Below, in pieces: positions 15,945-27,838 of a stretch of DNA of 64,000 nucleotides (position 1 is the stretch's first letter; every line of letters begins with the position of its first letter). Position numbers and translations under genes: made by a program. The DNA is from Hyaloraphidium curvatum (lineage: Eukaryota; Monoblepharomycota; Hyaloraphidiomycetes; Hyaloraphidiales; Hyaloraphidiaceae), in assembly GCA_025558095.1 (NCBI GenBank), contig JAIVFI010000002.1, positions 868,001-932,000 on the forward strand. The letters are read 5' to 3'. The notes below the pieces were generated by a model, which was not told where the DNA came from, did not search any database, and saw nothing but the letters and a program-made list of their open reading frames with translations.

Positions 15945-16232
15945 ATGCCGCGGGGAAATGCACTGGTAGTGGGGGGCCGGGGTAGGGGGGCGGGGACAAC
16001 CGGTCGGCGGGCGGCGGAGGGCACGCGAGGGTCCGCCGCGGCCTCCGAAACCTGCGGAAATATCGTGCGCAGCCGTCGGAACGGCCGGCGGGGTCGTACG
16101 GTGCGCTGCCTGCGCGCGATGGGCGGCGGGAGCCGGCGGGTCCGATGCTCGCTGGATGCCGGCCTGCTTCCAACGCGGCGGCGCCCTCTTCCGGCATTTT
16201 CCCGCGCGGGTGCCGGACTTCCGCGGGCATCC

Positions 16233-16318
16233 GCGCCGCCGGACGGCGAGGGTGGTAAAATGGACCCTATGGACAGCTGAGGACACGGTAGTAGGCTCGA
16301 TTTCTCACACCATTCATT
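16233..16318 (+). repeat. 86-nt island repeat, copy 1
   Basis: This segment aligns without gaps to 21068-21153. The strongest identity lies in the second half (GCTGAGGACACGGTAGT and CATTTCTCACACCATTCATT-like stretches) and in the first 14 nt (GCGCCGCCGGACGG). It ends 91 bp before the ATG-like start of the truncated GT relic at 16410, in the same orientation and at nearly the same distance as copy 2 before an intact GT gene. It is therefore probably part of a duplicated GT promoter. Confidence 0.75.
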
Positions 16319-16409
16319 GTCGGGTGAGGTTGTCTCGCCCGTGGCTGAAGGTTGGGTGAGTTGTCCCGCCCGGGGGTGAAGGTCGGGGGACTTCCCGCCC
16401 ACCATTAAT

Positions 16410-16700
16410 ATGCGGGTGGACGACCCACTGCAGCCGTGCACAGGGACCTGGGTGCTGGTCGTCGCGTTCCTGCTGCCGCCGCATCGCCGTCCGCCGTGCC
16501 CCGCGACGAGTGGCGGCCCGTGCCGCTGGAGCCTGCGAGGCGGCCGCGCCCGCACAAACCCCCGCGGCTGCCGCCCCCGCTGCAAGGATATCTACGGGAT
16601 GCACGACGTGCTGGTCGGCGCCGAGGTCAACGTGACGCAGGAGACGGTCGAAGCAGCCGTCAAAGGCCGGCGTGCTGCGCCATGCCGTCGCTCCACGGTC
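16410..16700 (+). pseudogene. Truncated second copy of the 14.7-kb glycosyltransferase
   Basis: The start MRVDDPLQPCTGTW parallels MEDPLQPRARTW at 14671. A frameshifted stretch reads SAVPRDEWRPVPLEPARRPR, versus SAVPRDGWLPVPLDLPQRPR in the larger relic. After an internal deletion the original frame returns as DIYGMHDVLVGAEVNVTQET, versus DVYGLHDVLVGTEVNVTHQS. Nothing downstream of this survives. It is a decayed tandem duplicate of the neighbouring pseudogene, with about 130 codons of the middle missing. Confidence 0.75.
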
Positions 16701-16789
16701 AAGTCCCGGCCTCTGGAGGAAACAAACGGAGCGACAAGCGCGGAGAGCACCAATACTAGCAGGACGACAGAAGCTCGCCACCAGGTCAT
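16695..16789 (-). pseudogene. Relic of the 5' end of a GT47-type gene, inverted
   Basis: Read on the minus strand from 16789, this gives MTWWRASVVLLVLVLSALVA. That closely matches the signal-anchor start of the exostosin gene at 27369 (MSGWRLHGLLLILVLSALFG), and the DNA is visibly similar over about 60 nt. The similarity stops soon after, where the opposite-strand GT relic begins. The segment is therefore a scar of duplication and inversion, not a gene. It also supports 27369 as the true start of the intact exostosin gene. Confidence 0.65.
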
Positions 16790-16858
16790 GTGCTTGACTC
16801 GCCGTCGATACAGGTGTGATATCGCGCAGCCGTCATCTTCCAAGTGCGGCGTCCTCCA

Positions 16859-19800
16859 TCACATCAACGCCGCACCGCCCAGGTGCTCCCCAGCGCTGCA
16901 CAACCTCCCGATCGTCCAGTCCAGGTGCTCTCCAAGGGCTGTCGCGTTGACCGCAAAGTCCACCTCTGTCAGCCTGAGTGCGTCGTGCCGATCGCGGCAC
17001 AACAGCACCGGCACCGGGTTGGACTCGAACGGCGCCCACCTGCACCGCCGCGCAACCTCTTCCGCGGCCGCGGGATTCGCCGGCGCATGGCCTGTCGAGA
17101 CCGCGTACACGGCGCCAAGGCGCTCCGCACCACGCTTCCAGAGATCCTCGCGCAAAGCGATTCCGATCTCCAAGATCCCGACAAGGGTTTTGGAAGGCGC
17201 CAGGACAAAGCCGGTAAGATGGCTACCCGTAGGGGTCACCAGCACGTCGAAGGAGGCAAACACGCGGATGTGGTCGGCGGTAGAGAGTGAGACGTTGGCA
17301 GTGACCTCGATCACGGGCAGGGACGTGCGAGCGGCAGCCGCAGCGAGGAGTGCGGGCAGGTTGGATACGTTGCGGGCGTTCCGGCTGGCGGTGCGGCGCC
17401 ACACTGCAATGCGGAGGGAGCGGGAGCGGCACCGCTCGGCGAGCGCGCGGGCTTGGGCCTTTTGGTCGGGGAGGAGGGTGCCGGCGAGCTCAGGTTCTGT
17501 CCGTGCCAGGGCCTCGCGGAACCAGGCATCGTCGCTCGGGTCCAGCATGCCGCCCCAGATATGAGTGAGGAGGAACAGCTCGTCGAAACACGAGATGCCG
17601 CGGGGAACCTGGATCGCCCTGTCCACCGGCACGCTCAGCAGGTCGTTGGACTGCCAGTTCTGGAAGGCAATCTCGGTCAGCCGCCTTCCGAGCCTCCACT
17701 CGGGCCAGCGAGAGTAAGCGGGGCACCAGTTGAAGGCGAGCCGGTCGAAAGGTTGCAGCGGGGGGTTGGGCGGGCGCCTACCCAGCGCGACAGCGGCCGC
17801 CCCGCCAAACATGAGGTGCGCCAGGTTGGGCGTGTCCGGGTAACCGCAATGCGGCAGAAGTGTGCGGCCCCGGTGCCACGTCCGGTTGGCGGTGGCGGCA
17901 ACCACGTCGCGGGCTGCGGGTTCGACCACGAGCGCGGCTGCGAGGTTTTCCAAGGCTTCCGGCCCCACGTCGGCGTCGGCAAAGAAGGCGCCGCCCTTTG
18001 GCATCGCATGCCACCCGTCCGGCACGGCAAAGCACGCGCGGCGAAACCGCAGCAGCCGCGTGTTCCGTATCGGCATTGGCGGCAGCCGAAGTGTGAGGTC
18101 CGAGAACGGAGCATTGTCAGGCTCAGGCTCCGGTGCGGGGACCCCCGAGAGCGCCGCCGGCGGCACGTGCTCCTGCCGGAACGGTGCCTGCCCTCCCGCC
18201 TTTGTCCGCCGGCCTTTTTCGCACAGCCGGCGCAGAGCAAGCTCGATGTCCTTCTTGGCCCGGGCCAAATCCACCTCCACTTTGCCCTCACTCAGCTTGT
18301 GCCGCTCCGCATCCGGCAAGGGGCACTCGATGACCTGGGGTTCCCCAGGCCACACCTCTTTCCACGTGCACTTGGCATCGATCGCTGCCGCAACCCCAGC
18401 GTCCACGGTGCGGTGGCCGGTCGAAACGACGTACACGGATCCCCAAGCATCGGCTTCCTCCTTCCAGAACCTGTCCCGGAGCACGGAACCGAGCTCCACC
18501 CACGCCTTGAGGGGCTTCCCGGGGACCGCCGCGACGGCAGCAAAGTGCGATCCGGGCGGCATCACGAGCACGTCGTACGATGCATGCACGCGAACATGCT
18601 CTGCCGTGCTCGTTTCCGGACTGGTCGATACGATCGCAACCTTTGCCGATGTGAAGCTGCCCAGGAGGTTGGTGAGGCCTTCGACGTTGACGTAGGATCG
18701 GGCGTTCCATTCCGCTTCCGGTCGGGCAAACACCGCGATCCTCAAGCTGTGCGTCGAGCAGCGGTGCAAAAGGCTGTCCAGTAGCTGCATTTCGGAAGGC
18801 AAAAGGTCGCTGCTCGCCTCCGGTACCCTCCTAGCCAGCTCGGTCCGCAGCACTTTGTCGTCTCGTAGGTCCAGAACGAGGCCCCTGAGTTTGGAGGCCA
18901 CCCAGAGCTCCTCGTAGCACGCCGCCTTGGGTTGGAAAGCGGCACGCGAGACATCGTCGGCGAGCATGCCCGACGCCGTCCACGGCGTGAAACTGCTCTC
19001 GATCAGGTGCCTACCGAATTCCCACCCCTTGAACCCGGGGTGGTACGTGCTGCCGTGCCAGGGGCACCAGCTGAACGAAACGTTTCGGAAAACAGGTCTG
19101 GGGCCTGCACTCTCAGGCCAGCGTTCCGAGAGCGAGATTGCGAAAGCCATTCCGAACATGAGATGTGCGAGTTGCGGTGTGGAGGGCCTTACGGGTCGCA
19201 ATCAGCATCACCCAATGTGGACGCGCAGCGAAGAAGCTCACCACTCGCAAACGGGCAGGAACGTTGCACCCGGCACCCAGGTCGGCCGCGTCCCGTTCTC
19301 ACGCCGGCCCCAAGACACCGTGATGTGCTGCACACCTCGCGCAGCGACCATCCTTTCTTCGATCGTTGCCATAGTGGCATTGAACCACAGGTCCGTCGGG
19401 TACGGATGGCCAGGATCACGTGAAGCAAGACACACATTGCGGACGACAGTCAGGCGCCCCAGCCGAGCAGGTGGAGGTTGGAGCAATGCGTCTGCCAACA
19501 GGATATTCCGGATTTCGTGGCGCGCCGAGGCTCCCGATTGCTGTGAGGCGGGTTCTGTTAAATGCTCGAACCTCCAGGTGAGCGCGGAAAGGTGCCGCTG
19601 GACATGTTCCGTCAGGCGGGCCACGTCTTCCTCTTCGTTGCCGCTGGCAACAAAAAAGTCGGGCCTGTTCCTGTCGTAAGGTTGGGTGTGCTGGGGCAGG
19701 ATCACGAGCCCGCGCCCGGGGTCGTGGAGCATGGCAGCCAGCTGAGAAAAGCCCGAGATTGACTGCACCAACACGTCCGCACGGACCAGGGCCTTGAACG

Positions 19801-20776
19801 CATCCAGAGCCTGCGGCCCATCGCCGCTCACATTGACGACATGCCGGGCACGGATGGCATCGAAATCTGACAGGTTCAGTGCCACCACCTTTTCCGGCGG
19901 CACTGCGTCCATGTAGACGGTGATGAATGGCTTCGGAAGCCGGAGTGTTTCCAACGCGGCAGAAAGCGCGTTGCACGCGCCGACGTAGAACGAGTTGGGA
20001 ACGACCCTGCCTGCATGCGGGCCAGGACGCCCAAAAATGTCCCCGCGCCTAATGTGCACCGCGACCTGCAGCTCGCGCGGATCGCATTCGCCGTCCGAGC
20101 ACGGACGCCGCAAAGTCCAAGGCAGCACTTCCGACATTCTGGGCAGCGCATCCGTCGCACGGCCCATGAGCCCTATCGCCTCGGTCAGCCCGAGCAGCAC
20201 CTTCTCCCGGCCCCGAGCTCGCGCCTCCGTGCAGGCTTTGCGGGCAAGGTGAAGGAGCTCGGCACTATTAGGGTGAGTTCTTTCCGGAGGAGGGCGATAG
20301 CATCCGTCCTCGGCCTCGGCCCCCCCGAGGCAAGAGGTATTGTACGACGGCAGCTCAAACAGCGCATTCCATTCCCGTCGAAGCTTCGAGCTGGGCACGT
20401 GGTCGTACCACGGTGCTTCGCGATGTCGGTACCCGCAACCGCTGTTCTTGCAAAACATGAAGAGCTGAACCGATCGCCGGTTGCGGGCTCCGGGTCCGTC
20501 CAAGTAAGTCGGAGCAATTTCGAGCGTTACATTGCAAAACCTCGAAACGTTGTAGCTGGTGGTCGGCGGAGCGCCAGGAATCCGCGTTGCTTCGGGGACC
20601 CTCGTCGACCGAGCCACTGGAGACGCGTCCGACGTGGCAGGAAGGGGCGATTTCACTCGATACGCGTCGAAATGAACCATTGTCCTCTCCTCAGGCGCTC
20701 GGAATAGCGACCAGGCCGCCACCAGCAGTATCGCGGCGGCCCCGAACAAAGGGAGCATCAGCGGATGCCTTGGCAT
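16859..20776 (-). CDS. Three-domain glycosyltransferase: fucosyltransferase-like + GT61-like + GT61-like
   Basis: Two exons (20776-19242 and 19187-16859) joined across a 54-nt intron (GTGAGC donor, TGCTGAT branch, TAAG acceptor) give about 1,287 aa. An N-terminal anchor (LMLPLFGAAAILLVAAWSLF) implies a type II Golgi protein. Domain A (about 80-430) has LQVAVHIRRGDIFGRPG and LVRADVLVQSISGFSQLAAM, paralogous to the gene at 21266. Domains B (about 450-810) and C (about 860-1287) are homologous to each other and GT61-like: each has an LAHLMFG segment, a CPW/CPAY segment and a late loop (SYDVLVMPPGSHFAAV; SFDVLVTPTGSHLTGF). Splicing gives FLPVCEWPSTPQLAHLMFG in B, matching LLPHCGYPDTPNLAHLMFG in C, which is why the in-frame stops at 19.2 kb are read as intronic. 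Substrates are unknown. Confidence 0.75.
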
Positions 20777-21265
20777 CCCTCGTCCGATGGTGCCACAGCC
20801 CGACGCACACTAGCATGTGCGCGTCCATAGCCGGTAGCAATGTTTTCCAAACCTCGGGTGGCGCAGGGCGCGGCACGGAGAGTTGGGCATTGTCACGCGC
20901 GCCAGAGGGCCCTCCGCGCGTGCTCCGCGCGCGCAGGCTACTTGACTGCTTCGGCACACTTGCGCGCTTAACAGGCACCGCATCATACATAATCTAATAG
21001 AGAAGTTTATTGGTATCGTTTCGTAGGAAAGAAGTGGGATGCCTCAGCGTGAATGGGCGGATGATCTGCGCCGCCGGACGGGGACGGTTGGTGGATCGAC
21101 GTTGCGGGCAGCTGAGGACACGGTAGTGGGCTCCATTTCTCACACCATTCATTATCTGATGTCGGTCGGCCAAGTCGAGGTGCTATCGGCCGTTGACGAC
21201 AGTTCAGGACGTTGACGCGGCAGTCTCCGCGACGCGCTCTTCCACGTGCTCGGCTCCGATGGCCG
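20777..21265. promoter_or_regulatory. Bidirectional upstream region of two GT genes
   Basis: This 489-bp spacer lies between the divergent starts of the three-domain GT and its stand-alone paralogue. It contains an AT-rich island near 20985-21025 (ACATAATCTAATAGAGAAG, then TTTATTGG), conspicuous in this GC-rich sequence and a candidate core promoter. The 86-nt repeat follows at 21068-21153. No gene was recognised in it. Confidence 0.4.
21068..21153 (+). repeat. 86-nt island repeat, copy 2
   Basis: Gap-free partner of 16233-16318. It ends 112 bp before the ATG at 21266 of an intact fucosyltransferase-like gene. Shared position and orientation relative to two GT starts suggest a duplicated promoter segment rather than a coding remnant. 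Confidence 0.75.
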
Positions 21266-22495
21266 ATGGGCCTCTTCGGATCCCGCCGGAGGCTAATCCT
21301 GCTCGGGTTGGCAGCCGCCGCGCTCGTCCTGCTCGCACGCGGGGCCACCGTCGCGGACTCTTCGAACGCGTCAGTTCAACGCGCCAACGACCCCGGAGCT
21401 TTCTCCGCGCCCGCAATCGAAAGTCTTGAACAGAAGCAGATGGCTTCGGTCGCGAATCGCGCCGGCGCATCTTCAGGCCTGAACCTGTCAGAGGCGTGCA
21501 ACGTGACCCTCGCTGTGCATCCCCAGTTCAAGGACGGTGTCGGCGCCCGGAACCGCAGGCGATTGCACCTCTTTATCCTCTCCTTTATCGCCAACTGCGG
21601 CTTCCTAAATCCCCACTACGCCTGGTACGATCATGCGAGGACTGCAGAGGAGGTGGCGGCATGGAATGCTCTCTTTGCGCTGCTCCCGAGCCGGAACACG
21701 GCCTGCACGGGAGCCTCGCAGGCCGAGGACGGCTGCTTTCGGGCAAACCACACCGGATGGGGCGATTTCGGGATGCTCCGGCGCGCGGCGGACTCGGCCT
21801 GCCGCGCAGCATCGCTAGCAGGGACGGACCGCGTGCTCCTCTCGGTATCGGAGCCGGCGATCGTTTTTGACGGCACGAAGTTGCTCGGCATGGCGCCGCC
21901 GATGCAGCCGTTCTTGCCGTGGATCGGCGAACCGCCCTGCCACGGGCAACCCGCGTCCGAGTGCGAGCCCGCCCGGATCCACGTGGCGGTGCACGTTCGG
22001 CGCGGAGATATTCTGGGGAACCCCAGGTTCAAAGGTGTCGCGCTGCCCAACTCGTACTACGTCGCCGTGTGCAACGCGATCGAGTGGGCCCTGGCGGAAA
22101 ACGGCTTGCCCGCCCCGCGGATCCGCATCTTTATGGATAGCGTCCCCGACTCGCTGGCACTGCTGCTCAACCTTTCGGACTTTGACGCCGTGCACGCCCC
22201 GCACACGCTCGAGGTCCGGGGCCAGGAGCACGCGCTGGAGGCGTTCAGGGCGCTCGTCCGCGCGGACATCCTCGTCACTTCGAATTCGGGCTTTTCGACG
22301 GTGCCGGCCATGCTGCACGACCAGGGCCGCGGCATTGTCATTATGCCCTTCAACCCGCCCGCGCCTCGACCGGACTTCTTCCTCGCTTTCGGGAACGAAA
22401 CCCGCGACGCTCCGAGGCTGAAGTACCATTTTGCAAGGTACAGGGCAGCGCTGGAGTGGCGTGCGAGCAGGAAAGGCGTCCCGGGGAGAACATGA
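21266..22495 (+). CDS. Fucosyltransferase-like glycosyltransferase, single domain
   Basis: One uninterrupted exon, about 409 aa. MGLFGSRRRLILLGLAAAAL gives a type II signal anchor with a basic cytosolic side. The lumenal part contains ARNRRRLHLF, WYDH, AEDGCF, the donor-site motif IHVAVHVRRGDILGNP, IRIFMDSVPD, LVRADILVTSNSGFSTVPAM and DFFLAFGNETRD. It aligns along its length with domain A of the three-domain GT transcribed divergently next door. HxRRGD plus a late SGFS loop are features of GDP-fucose-using GT-B enzymes, but family and acceptor are not certain. ATG 21266 is used because the frame upstream has only TTG; a nearby ATG at 21259 is out of frame. Confidence 0.8.
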   Translation: MGLFGSRRRLILLGLAAAALVLLARGATVADSSNASVQRANDPGAFSAPAIESLEQKQMASVANRAGASSGLNLSEACNVTLAVHPQFKDGVGARNRRRLHLFILSFIANCGFLNPHYAWYDHARTAEEVAAWNALFALLPSRNTACTGASQAEDGCFRANHTGWGDFGMLRRAADSACRAASLAGTDRVLLSVSEPAIVFDGTKLLGMAPPMQPFLPWIGEPPCHGQPASECEPARIHVAVHVRRGDILGNPRFKGVALPNSYYVAVCNAIEWALAENGLPAPRIRIFMDSVPDSLALLLNLSDFDAVHAPHTLEVRGQEHALEAFRALVRADILVTSNSGFSTVPAMLHDQGRGIVIMPFNPPAPRPDFFLAFGNETRDAPRLKYHFARYRAALEWRASRKGVPGRT

Positions 22496-23313
22496 CCCGA
22501 TCCCTCTCGCAAGCTGCGATTCGACGAAGCTGTGGTGTGCCCGCGGTCCCGGCATGCCGCCCGCCCTCCCACCCCTCAGCCGTGTTGCCGCCGCCGTCCC
22601 GCTTCATGTCCGCCATTTTGCTGTCCGCCGCCGTCGACCGTGGCTGCGCGGGAGGGGCGCCGAGGGGTGCAGCGCGTGAGGGAGGTCCGACGGGGAGCGG
22701 CGCCGGGTTGCCCCCACCGCGCCCCGTCCCGCCGCCGCGCCGCGCCGCCGCCGCACAGGAACACGCGCGCCGTCACCGCGGTGGTGACCGCCGCCTCCGG
22801 AACCCGCCCAGGTGGACGGGGAGCCCGGTTTGGGCGAGGGGGTGTTGGGCGCGCGCTCCACCCAAAATCTGGCAGGGATCTCACTACCCAGCATGCATTT
22901 CCCAGCGGGTTTTATTGCATGAAAAGCATGCTTCTGCATCTCAACGTCCGAATCCCGCGCGCCGCCGGCGGGCGTCCACGGGGGAAAGAACTGGGCGCGA
23001 AAAGTTATTGTAGCCTGCTGCCCTCTTGGTCGGGGCTCCGCCCCTCGCCCAGACCGCTCGCTACGCTCGCGGGGGCCCTCCGCGGCAAAAGCTTGCAGGC
23101 AGGTAGCGGCGGGAGACGTGCGTGCCTGCGGCGGCCGGGTACGTGCCCGCTAACGCGGGGCTCGCTGGCGCTCGCGGGGAAGCTTGCACGCAGGTAGCGG
23201 CGGGGGGAGCGACCTCCTGAGCCCAGCACCCAACCTGGAATCAGAGACCAATTCGCCGCGCGACCTGGAATCAGTGAACCAGACTCGGTGGTAGCAGGTT
23301 CTCGGGAGCGATT
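22496..23313. other. GC-rich intergenic region with several short repeats
   Basis: No convincing gene in 818 bp between two convergent GT genes. It holds a 24-nt direct repeat (23090-23113 and 23181-23204, one mismatch), one copy of a 37-nt repeat (23143-23179), and a doubled ACCTGGAATCAG motif near 23.23-23.27 kb. About 22880-22935 resembles, in inverted orientation, the 3' end of the pseudogene at 15925-15975. Frames here are shadows of GC bias. Confidence 0.5.
23143..23179 (+). repeat. 37-nt direct repeat, left copy
   Basis: Identical to 27635-27671 except for one base (CCCGCTAACGC here, CCCGCTGACGC there). The core is GGGGCTCGCTGGCGCTCGCG. A degenerate relative lies at about 23055-23090. 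The two good copies bracket the O-fucosyltransferase-like and exostosin genes. Confidence 0.8.
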
Positions 23314-24756
23314 TCATTCGAGATATCCGTCAATCCACGATGATCTCCATGATCGCCGCGGCCGCTTCGTCCCATTGTTCTCCTCAGGGTATGCCAGCGT
23401 AACCTTCACCGCCGTCCCGTCCTTCACCTGCCACTCCCCGTCCCACCATCCTCTCATTTCGATCGCCGACATCGTGAAACTGGACCTGGGGTCGCCGATA
23501 AAGTACGTCCCGTGGGACAGAATGATCTTGTCCAAAAAGGCGTGCGCAGACCACTGCGGCGGCCCCGGAAAGTAGGGGACGAGGAAGGGATGGAAAGGAT
23601 CCGGCGAAACGGGTAGAGGGGGATCCGCAGGAGGGATGTGAAAGGGGGTTTCCGTCGCCGCAGAGTCGTTCCGAACGACGGAAGCAGGGTCGCCGTCGTC
23701 CACATCCAAGATGCGCAGCTTCGCGACACGACGGCTTGCAGCTTCAACCGGGCGAAAGAACCGGCACCGCGAAATGCCGGCGACAATCTGCCGGAGCTCG
23801 TCATCATCCCCGTTCGTCGCGACGAAAACGGTCCAGTTGTCCGCCTTCCAGCTCCGCCGCAGGCTCTGCACGTCTTCGATGATCTTGTCCAGCCGTGGAA
23901 GGGGTTTGAAGTCGCCGCGACGGATGTGGAGCGCGATCCAGGGCTCCCCGTTCGGTGCGAGCAGCCCGCGAATGAACCGCCTCGCCGTCTCGAGGTAGCG
24001 TGGATAAGGATACCAAGGACACGGCTTCGTACGCCACGGCGGTGTGGGAGCGCCAACAAGAAAGCTGCTGCCGATCACGAGCACCCGCTTTGACGCATAC
24101 GGTTCCTGGGCCAGTTGCTCGCCCATTTCGCCGCCGTTCCCCGCGTACTTACCGCGCGAAAGGAACATGTAGCCGCCATCGCCGCAGTTGCTGTCGACGA
24201 TGCACTTTGTCAGATTTGCGTAGGTCCAGTTGCGCAGCTGGCCAAAGTCAATGTCGTGGAACTTTTCCCCAACTGGACGGTCCCGGACGTGCACGACATG
24301 GTCCGTGGTCCTGTTGAAAATCGGCTCCACGTCGTCGTACTCTGCGATCCGCAGGCCGCACTTTTCCATGTGCGACGTGTCGAAGAAGCTCGAGCAAGGT
24401 GCAAAGATGCGCCAGGTCATCTGCCAATGCGGGAGCACAAGGGTGCGGTTCAGGCGATTCGCGAGGTACAGCAGCAGGGGCGCGGCGTAGTAGCCGTTGC
24501 TGAAGTAGCCGTAGGCCCCCGAAGTGACGACGAACTTCTCGTCGGGGCCGAACGTTCGCCTCGAAGCGGGTCGCGCGCGAGGCATACTGGCCGCTGCCGG
24601 CCTGCTCGCCTCCAAAGCATTGCGATCCGGGCCGAGAAGAAGCAGACCGGCGGCCAGAAACGCTAAGACCAAGGCGGCCGCCGCCGCCAGATGCGGCAAC
24701 CGGACGGTCGCGGCCATGGGACTGTCTCGGATTTCACGCCGCCGGTCCTCCCACAT
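23314..24756 (-). CDS. O-fucosyltransferase-like glycosyltransferase
   Basis: Single exon, 480 aa. N-terminal anchor HLAAAAALVLAFLAAGLLLL (type II). Features resembling the GDP-fucose protein O-fucosyltransferase superfamily, in order, are FSNGYYAAPLLLYLANRLNR then TLVLPHW (acceptor/nucleotide domain), EPWIALHIRRGDF (donor phosphate-binding HxRRGD), WTVFVATNGDDDEL, and LSHGTYFIGDPRSSFTMSAI (C-terminal loop that seals the donor site). Several NxT/S sites fit a lumenal protein. It lies 210 bp downstream of, and co-directional with, the exostosin gene. Which protein or glycan is fucosylated, and whether the donor is GDP-fucose at all, cannot be read here. Confidence 0.75.
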   Translation of the reverse strand: MWEDRRREIRDSPMAATVRLPHLAAAAALVLAFLAAGLLLLGPDRNALEASRPAAASMPRARPASRRTFGPDEKFVVTSGAYGYFSNGYYAAPLLLYLANRLNRTLVLPHWQMTWRIFAPCSSFFDTSHMEKCGLRIAEYDDVEPIFNRTTDHVVHVRDRPVGEKFHDIDFGQLRNWTYANLTKCIVDSNCGDGGYMFLSRGKYAGNGGEMGEQLAQEPYASKRVLVIGSSFLVGAPTPPWRTKPCPWYPYPRYLETARRFIRGLLAPNGEPWIALHIRRGDFKPLPRLDKIIEDVQSLRRSWKADNWTVFVATNGDDDELRQIVAGISRCRFFRPVEAASRRVAKLRILDVDDGDPASVVRNDSAATETPFHIPPADPPLPVSPDPFHPFLVPYFPGPPQWSAHAFLDKIILSHGTYFIGDPRSSFTMSAIEMRGWWDGEWQVKDGTAVKVTLAYPEENNGTKRPRRSWRSSWIDGYLE

Positions 24757-24966
24757 GGATTATGCCGACCTCGGTGCAGGTCCCGATTTAGACGAGGACT
24801 CTCCAATGCTGGCTGAGCCTCTCGGGCGGCTCGCGATGAGCATAACTTGGCTCTGCGACTCTGGCGGCGGTAGCGGGGCGTGAGTGAACGATTGAACTTG
24901 TATTGACGACCGGACCCGCCACCAACAGCGCCCTGGAATCCGGAGCGGTCGCGCTTACGGGGAAGG

Positions 24967-27369
24967 CTACACGGCGACCCGGCGTGGGCGAAACTTCTCT
25001 ACGAACAGCCCCCTGCCCGCCCTCTTCCACGCCTCCTCCCACCCGCCCCTGAGCGAGCCGGCGGCCCGATCCACAGCGTCCTTCTCCCGCCAGTACCTCG
25101 GGCCCCCAACCGCGGGCCCCCGCGACTCGGCGTACCCGATCCCCAGGCCATCCCTGCCCCGCGACTCGAGGAGGTACGAGCAGGGAGGGAACGCGAGCGC
25201 GGTGCCGTTCATGTGCCGCACCGCGAGCAGCGATATCGTCTCGGGATTGCAGCCCCGTTCTTTGGGGCACCTCCAGAGCAGTCCGATCGCAGAGGCGGGG
25301 TCTGAGTTGGAGAAGAGCGAGGAAACGCCGAGGAGCGCAGGGGCGAGGCGGCGCGGAAAGGCGGTGTGGCGGTCGTTGATGCCCCCCCAGTGCTCCGCAT
25401 CGGGGACAAAGACCGCGTCGCGGTCGACCTCGGCCATCAGACCCAGCGGGGGGTGGGGTGCAATCCAGAGCATGTCCGGTCTGGTTCTGACTACGGTTTG
25501 GTAGCGCTGTCCGGCGCTGCGTTCCCGGTCCAGGATCGCGCGCCAGCACTCCCTATAGTTGAAGTAGTTGCCGAGCATCGAGGCCACCGTCTGGTTCTCG
25601 AGCAGCGGGAGCACCGCATCGGCGGCTGGGAATGTGGCGTGCAGCGCGTTCCGGTCGCGGCCCGAGGCGTCGATGCGCATCCACTCCAGGCCGGGGAGGT
25701 CCGCAACCAGGCGAGCGACCTGCTTTCTGTACACTGCATCGGCGACAACGATGTACGCAAACACGTCCACGCGCCACTGCGCGTCGTCGGTGGGCCAGGG
25801 AGCCTTCAGGCCGCCTAGCAAGTTGGACACGATCGATGAAAAGGTGTCGTTGAAGCTGCGAGCTCCGCCGACAATGCACACGGCTGCCGTGTAGGGTTGA
25901 ATAGGTAGGTCGGCATTGGGATCCTCGAAGGGCCCTGGAGCGGTGGGAGATGCGACTGCGGAAGTACGGGCGCTGGGAAGCGTGGCGCCCGTGTGTGCTG
26001 CCTGCCGCGCCAAATGCATGGCGATGCCAACCGTGCTCTCCAGCTCGTGGTAATAAGAAGCCAGGTGCGCGTGGCAGAATGCCAGTGCTTTTCTCCTCTT
26101 CTTCTTGTGTTCTCCGGCCGCATACAGGGCGCGCAGGGTCGGTATGACCTCCTTGAGGTCCTCTGCCTCCCTGAAGCGCACGCCGTAGGATTCAAATGGC
26201 GCGATCTGCTCAAACGGAGGTACCAGTTGGTCCTGAATGAGGACCGGCACGGCCCCGCTGCAAATGACCTCGACGTAGCGGAGGCTGTACTGCAGATCGC
26301 CGGAAAGGATCAGGGAGAAAACCGAAGACGACAGCAGCTCAAGGTAGTTGAACCTCTTCGCTTCCTGTTCGTTGGCGCTGTCCACGAGTACAATTCCCTC
26401 TGTTTGGTTTGTCGGCAGCAGCTCTTTGATGCGCTTCCTCGCCTTGCCCTTCCGGAAGCTCGCCATGAACGTCAAGAACCAGCGGTAGCCGTCCGGGTCT
26501 TTGAAAGCGGCAGGGCGCTTGACGGGCTCGGCGGGCAAGCCTGCTTTAGCAGTCTCCGCAAAGGGCGGCAGCACTCCGGTCCACGCGTAACCGAACTCGG
26601 GCCTGTATCTGTAGCCCTCAGGCCGGGGCGGGACCAAAGCCGGAGGCATGGATATGTGCCGTGAGGGATCGAAAAAGCTCTTCTTGACCTCCTTATCCGC
26701 CAGAATAAACCTCGGATCCTCCCAAGGTAGCTTTTCGTGCTTGGCGGTCCAGTCGGTCCAGTTGTTTCTCCACCAGAACACGTGTTCCCATTCGTAAGTG
26801 CTCATTAGGAACGCTTTCGTGTGAGCGGGCATCTCTGCGAGTAGCTCCAATGACCTCTCGAGCGTCTCGAATAGGCAGTAATGTCCCGGCACGGCGTAGT
26901 TACGCTCCTTCCCTCCGTATTCAGGAAAGTGGACGTTCCGGGCCAGGAAGGGCGGGAGCATGGCCAAGACTGCCTCGGAAGGATACTCTGTCCTCTGTGG
27001 GTGGTTCGCAAAGAACACGTACGCCACGGATCCGTCGAGATTGAACGCGCACTCCCGGAGCTCTGGCCAGCGAGAGAGCGCTTGCTCCATCGAGAGGAGG
27101 AAGAACTTGGGGCCGCTCCCGCCCGAGCTCCGCTGCTGGAGCAGAGCGAGAGGAGATTGTTCGGAAGAACTGGGACGGATGGGATCCGGAGCACATCGCG
27201 CCGACGCTTCCGCAAGTTCCGGTGGGGGATCCGGTTGGGCAAACGCGTCCCGTTCGTCGCTCCGCCGTCCCTCCGCAGCAAAGTCCGGGCGTCCAAGGGA
27301 AGCAAGGGTACCGAATAGCGCCGAGAGCACCAGTATCAGCAGGAGGCCATGAAGTCGCCACCCGGACAT
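24967..27369 (-). CDS. Exostosin (GT47)-like domain fused to a second putative glycosyltransferase domain
   Basis: Single exon, about 800 aa from MSGWRLHGLLLILVLSALFG. The frame is open to 27624, but the matching relic at 16789 supports this start. The N-terminal half is exostosin-like: AYVFFANHPQ, EWEHVFWWRNNW, FLTFMASFRKGKARKRI, and SVFSLILSGDLQYSLRYVEV then CSGAVPVLIQDQLVPPFE, the conserved GT47 nucleotide-binding region. After a Pro/Ala linker a separate domain begins AAVCIVGGARSFNDTFSSIV and includes DVFAYIVVADAVY, YQTVVRTRPDMLWIA and FVPDAEHWGGINDRHTAFPR. Its RxRPD and DxH-type motifs suggest another GT, but I cannot name the family. GT47 enzymes build heparan- or wall-type polysaccharides elsewhere. 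Confidence 0.75.
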   Translation of the reverse strand: MSGWRLHGLLLILVLSALFGTLASLGRPDFAAEGRRSDERDAFAQPDPPPELAEASARCAPDPIRPSSSEQSPLALLQQRSSGGSGPKFFLLSMEQALSRWPELRECAFNLDGSVAYVFFANHPQRTEYPSEAVLAMLPPFLARNVHFPEYGGKERNYAVPGHYCLFETLERSLELLAEMPAHTKAFLMSTYEWEHVFWWRNNWTDWTAKHEKLPWEDPRFILADKEVKKSFFDPSRHISMPPALVPPRPEGYRYRPEFGYAWTGVLPPFAETAKAGLPAEPVKRPAAFKDPDGYRWFLTFMASFRKGKARKRIKELLPTNQTEGIVLVDSANEQEAKRFNYLELLSSSVFSLILSGDLQYSLRYVEVICSGAVPVLIQDQLVPPFEQIAPFESYGVRFREAEDLKEVIPTLRALYAAGEHKKKRRKALAFCHAHLASYYHELESTVGIAMHLARQAAHTGATLPSARTSAVASPTAPGPFEDPNADLPIQPYTAAVCIVGGARSFNDTFSSIVSNLLGGLKAPWPTDDAQWRVDVFAYIVVADAVYRKQVARLVADLPGLEWMRIDASGRDRNALHATFPAADAVLPLLENQTVASMLGNYFNYRECWRAILDRERSAGQRYQTVVRTRPDMLWIAPHPPLGLMAEVDRDAVFVPDAEHWGGINDRHTAFPRRLAPALLGVSSLFSNSDPASAIGLLWRCPKERGCNPETISLLAVRHMNGTALAFPPCSYLLESRGRDGLGIGYAESRGPAVGGPRYWREKDAVDRAAGSLRGGWEEAWKRAGRGLFVEKFRPRRVAV

Positions 27370-27634
27370 GTCGGCTACAAGGAGAAACATGCGAAAGGCA
27401 TCCCCCACGGACGAGACGATCGGGCAGGGACCTGGCGAGGGACCGCACGTGCAATGCGATGGAATCGATGCCGCAGCAGGATTCAACGAAACATTCCATC
27501 GAAGCGTTCCATCGAAGCGGTCCGAGCTCAATGCCACGTGTACGAGCACGCCCATATCGCCGCCGCCCAGTGCGAAGAAGCCACGATTCTCCCGCAGCCA
27601 CCATCTCCGATCTCCGCCGCCCACTAGAGCCCCT

Positions 27635-27671
27635 GTGCCCGCTGACGCGGGGCTCGCTGGCGCTCGCGGGG
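27635..27671 (+). repeat. 37-nt direct repeat, right copy
   Basis: Partner of 23143-23179 on the same strand, one mismatch. The following bases (CCGCTCCGCGGCAAAGC, then GCAGCGGCGGGG) resemble what follows the degenerate copy near 23080, so the repeated unit is longer than the perfectly matched core. Confidence 0.8.
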
Positions 27672-27744
27672 CCGCTCCGCGGCAAAGCTACATGGGAGGC
27701 AGCGGCGGGGACGCGGATCAGACTTCCGCAGCGCAATTTTAAGT

Positions 27745-27838
27745 CAGTGTCCGTTCGCGCACCAATGTAGAGTCACAGCGGTGCCAGCTAGCAGTGTCCG
27801 TTCGCGCACCAATGTAGAGTCACAGCCGTGCCAGCTAG
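27745..27838 (+). repeat. 47-bp tandem duplication
   Basis: Two adjacent 47-nt copies (27745-27791 and 27792-27838) each begin CAGTGTCCGTTCGCGCACCA and differ at a single base (CAGCGGTG versus CAGCCGTG). They lie 8 bp beyond the dihydroorotase stop, in its 3' UTR/terminator zone, at the border between the GT island and the housekeeping block. Confidence 0.9.

Follow-up and report, generated by a model that had tools for sequence, protein, structure and literature searches.

Enzymes that build sugar chains are usually separate proteins, and the order in which they act is set by their location and specificity. From the precedents of PgtA, A111/114R and PgtB, a multi-glycosyltransferase kind of protein is already known. 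The A111/114R protein of the chlorovirus PBCV-1 carries three glycosyltransferase domains, and the proposal is that these attach three sugars in one N-glycan (PMC7826918). In PgtA of Dictyostelium and Toxoplasma, as in the predicted protein described here, a fucosyltransferase is fused to another glycosyltransferase. PgtA places successive sugars onto Skp1; it has, in contrast, two domains (beta1,3-galactosyl- plus alpha1,2-fucosyltransferase) and is cytoplasmic (PMC8439653, PMC3655985). A further likeness is to Dictyostelium PgtB, in which a GT61-like domain is combined with other domains that resemble glycosyltransferases (PMC13123520).

Gene layout and the fucosyltransferase domain

In the window (the whole stretch of 64,000 nt that was analysed), two open frames lie in the same phase on the minus strand with stops between them: an upstream frame of 512 aa with an ATG start (19238-20776) and a downstream frame of 780 aa in which TTG is the only start (16859-19201). 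This is as the initial annotation had described them, one of 512 codons and one of 780 without a proper start. The fucosyltransferase domain and the beginning of the first GT61 domain (GT61-A) share one stop-free frame, and the remaining part of GT61-A and the second GT61 domain (GT61-B) make up the other. When 54 nt (19241..19188) are taken out, a joined protein of 1,287 aa results, with FLPVCEWPSTPQLAHLMFG at the junction; the intron proposed earlier, with 19242 and 19187 as flanking exon bases, was thereby recovered exactly. The original observation, that the two frames are joined by a 54-nt intron into one predicted polypeptide, was confirmed from the DNA, and its reading of that polypeptide as an anchor followed by an HxRRGD fucosyltransferase and two GT61 domains was supported (Table 1). 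Frames, junction, homology, conserved catalytic residues and the single anchor can all be read from the letters themselves. A weaker hydropathy peak (1.69) inside GT61-B, immediately after a PTGSHL stretch, is interpreted as a strand region of the domain core and not as a second anchor.

Table 1. Coordinates of the triple-enzyme gene, its predicted features and its neighbours in the window
Feature	Position	Strand	Basis
Exon 1: start codon, membrane anchor, fucosyltransferase domain, N-terminal part of first GT61 domain	19242..20776	(-)	open 512-codon frame
Predicted intron, 54 nt, GTGAGC...TGCTGAT...CGTAAG	19188..19241	(-)	C20 alignment and chaperonin introns
Exon 2: remainder of first GT61 domain, linker, entire second GT61 domain, TGA stop	16859..19187	(-)	open frame
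N-terminal hydrophobic anchor, single, aa 6-24, type II-like	20705..20761	(-)	hydropathy peak 2.18
Fucosyltransferase domain, aa 75-412	19541..20554	(-)	AlphaFold model, fold matches, profile chain to GT11
HIRRGD motif (motif I), aa 241-246	20039..20056	(-)	24-sequence alignment
First GT61 domain (GT61-A), aa 440-850, intron inside; QLAH and two conserved Arg	18173..19459	(-)	identity to C20
Second GT61 domain (GT61-B), aa 881-1287; NLAH and two conserved Arg	16862..18082	(-)	Pfam PF04577; C43 identity
Divergent neighbour, stand-alone anchored paralogue of the fucosyltransferase domain	21281..22495	(+)	45% identity, 343 aa, E 1e-81
Anchored O-FucT-like gene with HIRRGD	23314-24756	(-)	
GT47 and DUF7796 gene	24967-27624	(-)	

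No Pfam match above the cut-off, and no match to PF01531 (GT11), was obtained for the window fucosyltransferase domain, and its paralogues scored 12-17 bits against PF01531 (gathering cut-off 23.9). On these scores the domain was not filed as GT11. A link to that family was found through a chain of profiles. A starting profile, in which the window domain and its two paralogues were combined with a distant relative from bacteria, detected bacterial relatives, with standard GT11 proteins at the edge, and the enlarged profile detected standard bacterial GT11 proteins in quantity. In the final alignment PF01531 was matched by 13 of the 24 members; H, R, R and G of HIRRGD are invariant and D is nearly so. 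Motif I has been implicated in GDP-fucose binding, and the superfamily concerned consists of GT11, 23, 37, 56, 65, 68 and 74 (PMC8439653).

The initial annotation had also proposed a structure prediction of the whole product; the result covers aa 75-412, the fucosyltransferase domain, and its predicted fold is a GT-B fold like that of FUT8 and POFUT1. The AlphaFold model, made with the 24-sequence alignment, has a pLDDT of 87.7 and a pTM of 0.88. The leading near-full-length fold matches were FUT8 (Z 11.2, 242 aa, rmsd 4.1) and POFUT1 (Z 10.6, 251 aa, rmsd 4.4); POFUT2 and AtFUT1 also matched over most of the domain. Viral models labelled alpha1,2-fucosyltransferase or GT11 were matched too. 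VldE was tied with the leading matches, over the C-terminal half only. In a plain Foldseek search general GT-B enzymes ranked first, with low TM-score, and when the sequence profile was run against the PDB the top two matches were FUT8 and POFUT1, both weak. A solved GT11 enzyme was absent among the fold matches, which does not exclude one. The domain thus has in common with the GT11/GT23/GT65/GT68/GT37 superfamily both HxRRGD and the fold of FUT8, POFUT1/2 and AtFUT1, whereas the N-terminal loop, GGLGNQ in GT11, has diverged to GPGARN. On profiles and model together, it is predicted to be a divergent member of the alpha1,2/alpha1,6/O-fucosyltransferase superfamily, profile-linked to GT11 and not itself a GT11. 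For the fucosyltransferase family of this genome (L035, L061-L075), bacterial relatives from the phylum of Haloferula outscore canonical GT11; a gene transfer may have taken place.

The GT61 domains and their paralogues

The downstream frame matched PF04577 with 47.7 bits against a cut-off of 27, the best stretch being in GT61-B (36.4 bits in the genome-wide search). A second stretch, in GT61-A, passed only at E<=1 and was unlisted in the genome-wide search. GT61-A and GT61-B are homologous (33% identity, E 4e-58), and it is through this homologue, not strongly through Pfam itself, that GT61-A appears tied to GT61. A PDB sequence search with the GT61 domains gave nothing useful, and at the sequence level neither EOGT nor POMGNT2 was detected.

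The two GT61 domains had been taken for a tandem repeat, and this has to be corrected. GT61-A is 46-50% identical to the stand-alone gene on contig C20 (here C20) and GT61-B is 74-75% identical to the stand-alone gene C43, while the two domains are 33-35% identical to each other. In an unrooted GT61 tree, GT61-A with C20 was split from the rest at 100% support, and GT61-B grouped with C43, also at 100%. Because each domain groups with a different paralogue, two old paralogues have been brought together and no repeat is seen. C20, C43 and the neighbouring fucosyltransferase gene are all stand-alone, each with its own N-terminal anchor, and similarity to C20 and C43 starts right behind their anchors. 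From these comparisons, the gene seems to be a fusion of three formerly separate enzymes.

The genome searched (31.9 Mb, 55 contigs) has at least 23 GT61 matches, and the same three-domain architecture was not found elsewhere in it. Other very long GT61 frames of 1,183-1,295 aa are present (L045, L046 and L047 on contig C2, L048 on C29); by blastp they match neither the fucosyltransferase nor the GT61 domains of the window protein. Large N- and C-terminal parts of these frames have no Pfam match, and a C-terminal GLSSGS stretch is reminiscent of a hydrolase. A viral origin of the fusion was considered and set aside. A tblastn search of viral contigs detected nothing related to the fucosyltransferase trio or to the GT61 set, and with the wide alignment the only viral matches were single-domain fucosyltransferase-like proteins; therefore such an origin is unsupported.

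Residue positions for GT61 were taken from the EOGT structure paper (PMC13123520) and assigned by alignment. Across the two domains and five paralogues, the catalytic His, in its NxxH context, and the two UDP-binding Arg do not vary. The N-R-R triad is regarded in that paper as a feature that may distinguish active GT61 enzymes (PMC13123520); its Asn is kept in GT61-B (NLAH) and is replaced by Gln in GT61-A (QLAH), the same as in C20. It may be supposed from this that one domain of the single polypeptide, most likely GT61-A with its Q-R-R, is non-catalytic and serves for acceptor binding or as a scaffold. We consider this unlikely, since GT61-A keeps the catalytic His and both Arg, and F, Y or G stands at the Asn position in other GT61 proteins (PMC13123520). 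The substitution rates point the same way for GT61-A, where dN is below dS. Between GT61-B and C43, dN is 0.16 and dS 0.66 (dN/dS ~0.24), by which GT61-B is estimated to be under purifying selection; for the other domains against their paralogues dN was likewise well under dS, with dS saturated.

The predicted 54-nt intron

Three lines, each independent of the others, speak for the intron: the alignment to C20, a comparison of candidate introns, and the introns of chaperonin genes. The C20 paralogue is a single uninterrupted gene of 467 aa which reads KTLLPNCEWPSSPQVAHLMFG across the equivalent point. It aligns with the end of the first frame and the start of the second, with almost nothing in between. 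Every GT/GC..AG span of 30-259 nt near the junction whose removal leaves the frame open was taken as a candidate intron (n=51), and among them the 54-nt candidate gave the top C20 alignment (score 1053, against 1031 for the runner-up). A 57-nt intron with an alternative donor 3 nt upstream also keeps the frame, but a conserved Trp is lost and the C20 score is lower, and it was rejected.

For reference, 23 introns from the chaperonin genes of the same genome (L026-L034) were used, inferred via exon-wise Pfam matches and not from RNA. They are 50-66 nt long, with donors mostly GTGGGT/GTGCGT-like, a strong (G)CTGAC/T branch-like motif ~10-21 nt before the acceptor, and CAG acceptors except for one TAG and one AAG. 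In length (54), donor and branch (CTGAT, 14 nt before its end) the candidate agrees with this set. The weak point of the intron call is the acceptor, since AAG is unusual and occurs in only 1 of the 23. When random GT..AG spans of 45-70 nt were drawn from the window, only about 0.7% did as well on donor plus acceptor and on branch. The match is taken as more than chance. An independent paralogue, C20, reads straight through the same point.

Given that every reference intron has a higher-scoring acceptor, and that a stop follows directly after exon 1 when the intron is retained, retention could act as a switch, part of the transcript staying unspliced to give a 512-aa fucosyltransferase-only protein and the rest giving the triple enzyme. 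We regard such a switch as improbable, for an AAG acceptor does occur among the inferred introns of the genome and the retained form would bear a useless GT61 stump. That the 54 nt are a real interruption, either in a pseudogene or between separate genes, is very improbable: the in-frame stops and the second frame without an ATG at its start would fit it, but excision of exactly these 54 nt gives the best C20 alignment, the stretch is like the introns of this genome in donor, branch and length, the 1,287 codons are otherwise open with GT61-B under apparent purifying selection, and either half alone would lack part of GT61-A. We thus retain the joined gene with a predicted intron. An annotation built on open frames would cut such a gene in two at its 54-nt intron, and the traits of the chaperonin introns (50-66 nt, branch-like motif) should be useful for gene finding in this genome.

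The proposed enzyme and known systems

Three further glycosyltransferase genes are located within 11 kb of the triple-enzyme gene, in a cluster that spans 16859-27624, and this suggests one shared glycan pathway. GDP-mannose 4,6-dehydratase-like exons were found on C18 and C24, each alone under the whole-protein cut-off; by their sequence they are consistent with GDP-fucose being made in this organism. The genome carries a fungal-type chitin synthase domain, and a forkhead protein is encoded in the window; by these features the organism is most likely an opisthokont, and probably a fungus. Several repeats were observed in the region. The triple-enzyme gene lies between two copies of a 98-nt direct repeat that are 81% identical (16229-16326 and 21064-21161), and a whole-genome DNA search detected these two copies only. 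A 42-nt direct repeat (93%; 23143-23184 and 27635-27676) likewise brackets the O-FucT/GT47 pair, and two 47-nt tandem copies, 98% identical, lie upstream of the GT47 gene (27745-27838). Just downstream of the stop of the triple enzyme, a short frame on the minus strand (16592-16843) encodes an anchor-like MTWWRASVVLLVLVLSALVAPF and may be exon 1 of a further anchored enzyme.

The explanation that we prefer, and hold to be likely as a whole, is that three separate anchored enzymes were fused, their stand-alone relatives persisting in the genome, and that the inner two domains lost their anchors. A two-exon mRNA would encode a single type II membrane protein (1,287 aa) whose domains follow one another as fucosyltransferase - GT61 - GT61; it would most likely be located in the Golgi and act on one glycan. 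The N-terminal domain would transfer fucose from GDP-fucose. Each GT61 domain would transfer a UDP-sugar, for which the family offers xylose, arabinose and GlcNAc as precedents. Here splicing, location, donor sugars and the common acceptor are what we infer. Later proteolytic cleavage between the domains may occur and would be compatible with one open frame. Three catalytic folds on one type II stem suggest, by analogy with PgtA and with what was proposed for A111/114R, sequential transfer to one glycan, so that three sequential additions are plausible. The fullest form of this idea is more tentative: it supposes a Golgi assembly-line enzyme in which three transferases of separate evolutionary origin share one anchor and attach two UDP-sugars and fucose, one after another, to a single glycan. 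Such an enzyme, a combination not described before, is possible but doubtful. The triple enzyme predicts a fucosylated glycan in this organism. A natural single chain with three transferases, together with unfused relatives in the same genome, offers a direct test case for the way in which fusion sets the sequence of steps when a glycan is built.

In the open-licence literature no report was found of a fucosyltransferase-GT61 fusion or of the order fucosyltransferase-GT61-GT61. The earlier statement that no such enzyme had been described holds, in that literature, for the exact order, and it fails for the kind, since PgtA, A111/114R and PgtB are published. EOGT, POMGNT2 and the plant xylosyl-/arabinosyltransferases share with the window protein the catalytic His, the two UDP-binding Arg and the GT61 Pfam domain; they are not described as fucosyltransferase fusions (PMC13123520), whereas the window protein has two GT61 domains, one with Q for N. 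PgtB differs in that its domains are similar to GT1, GT2, GT4 and GT61, with an F-R-R triad, and a fucosyltransferase domain is unmentioned (PMC13123520). A111/114R resembles the window protein in having three domains on one polypeptide, a fucosyltransferase included (PMC7826918). In contrast, it is viral and ER-Golgi-independent, with domains of ~300 aa in the order galactosyl-, xylosyl- and, last, fucosyltransferase, and the two proteins are compared here by description.
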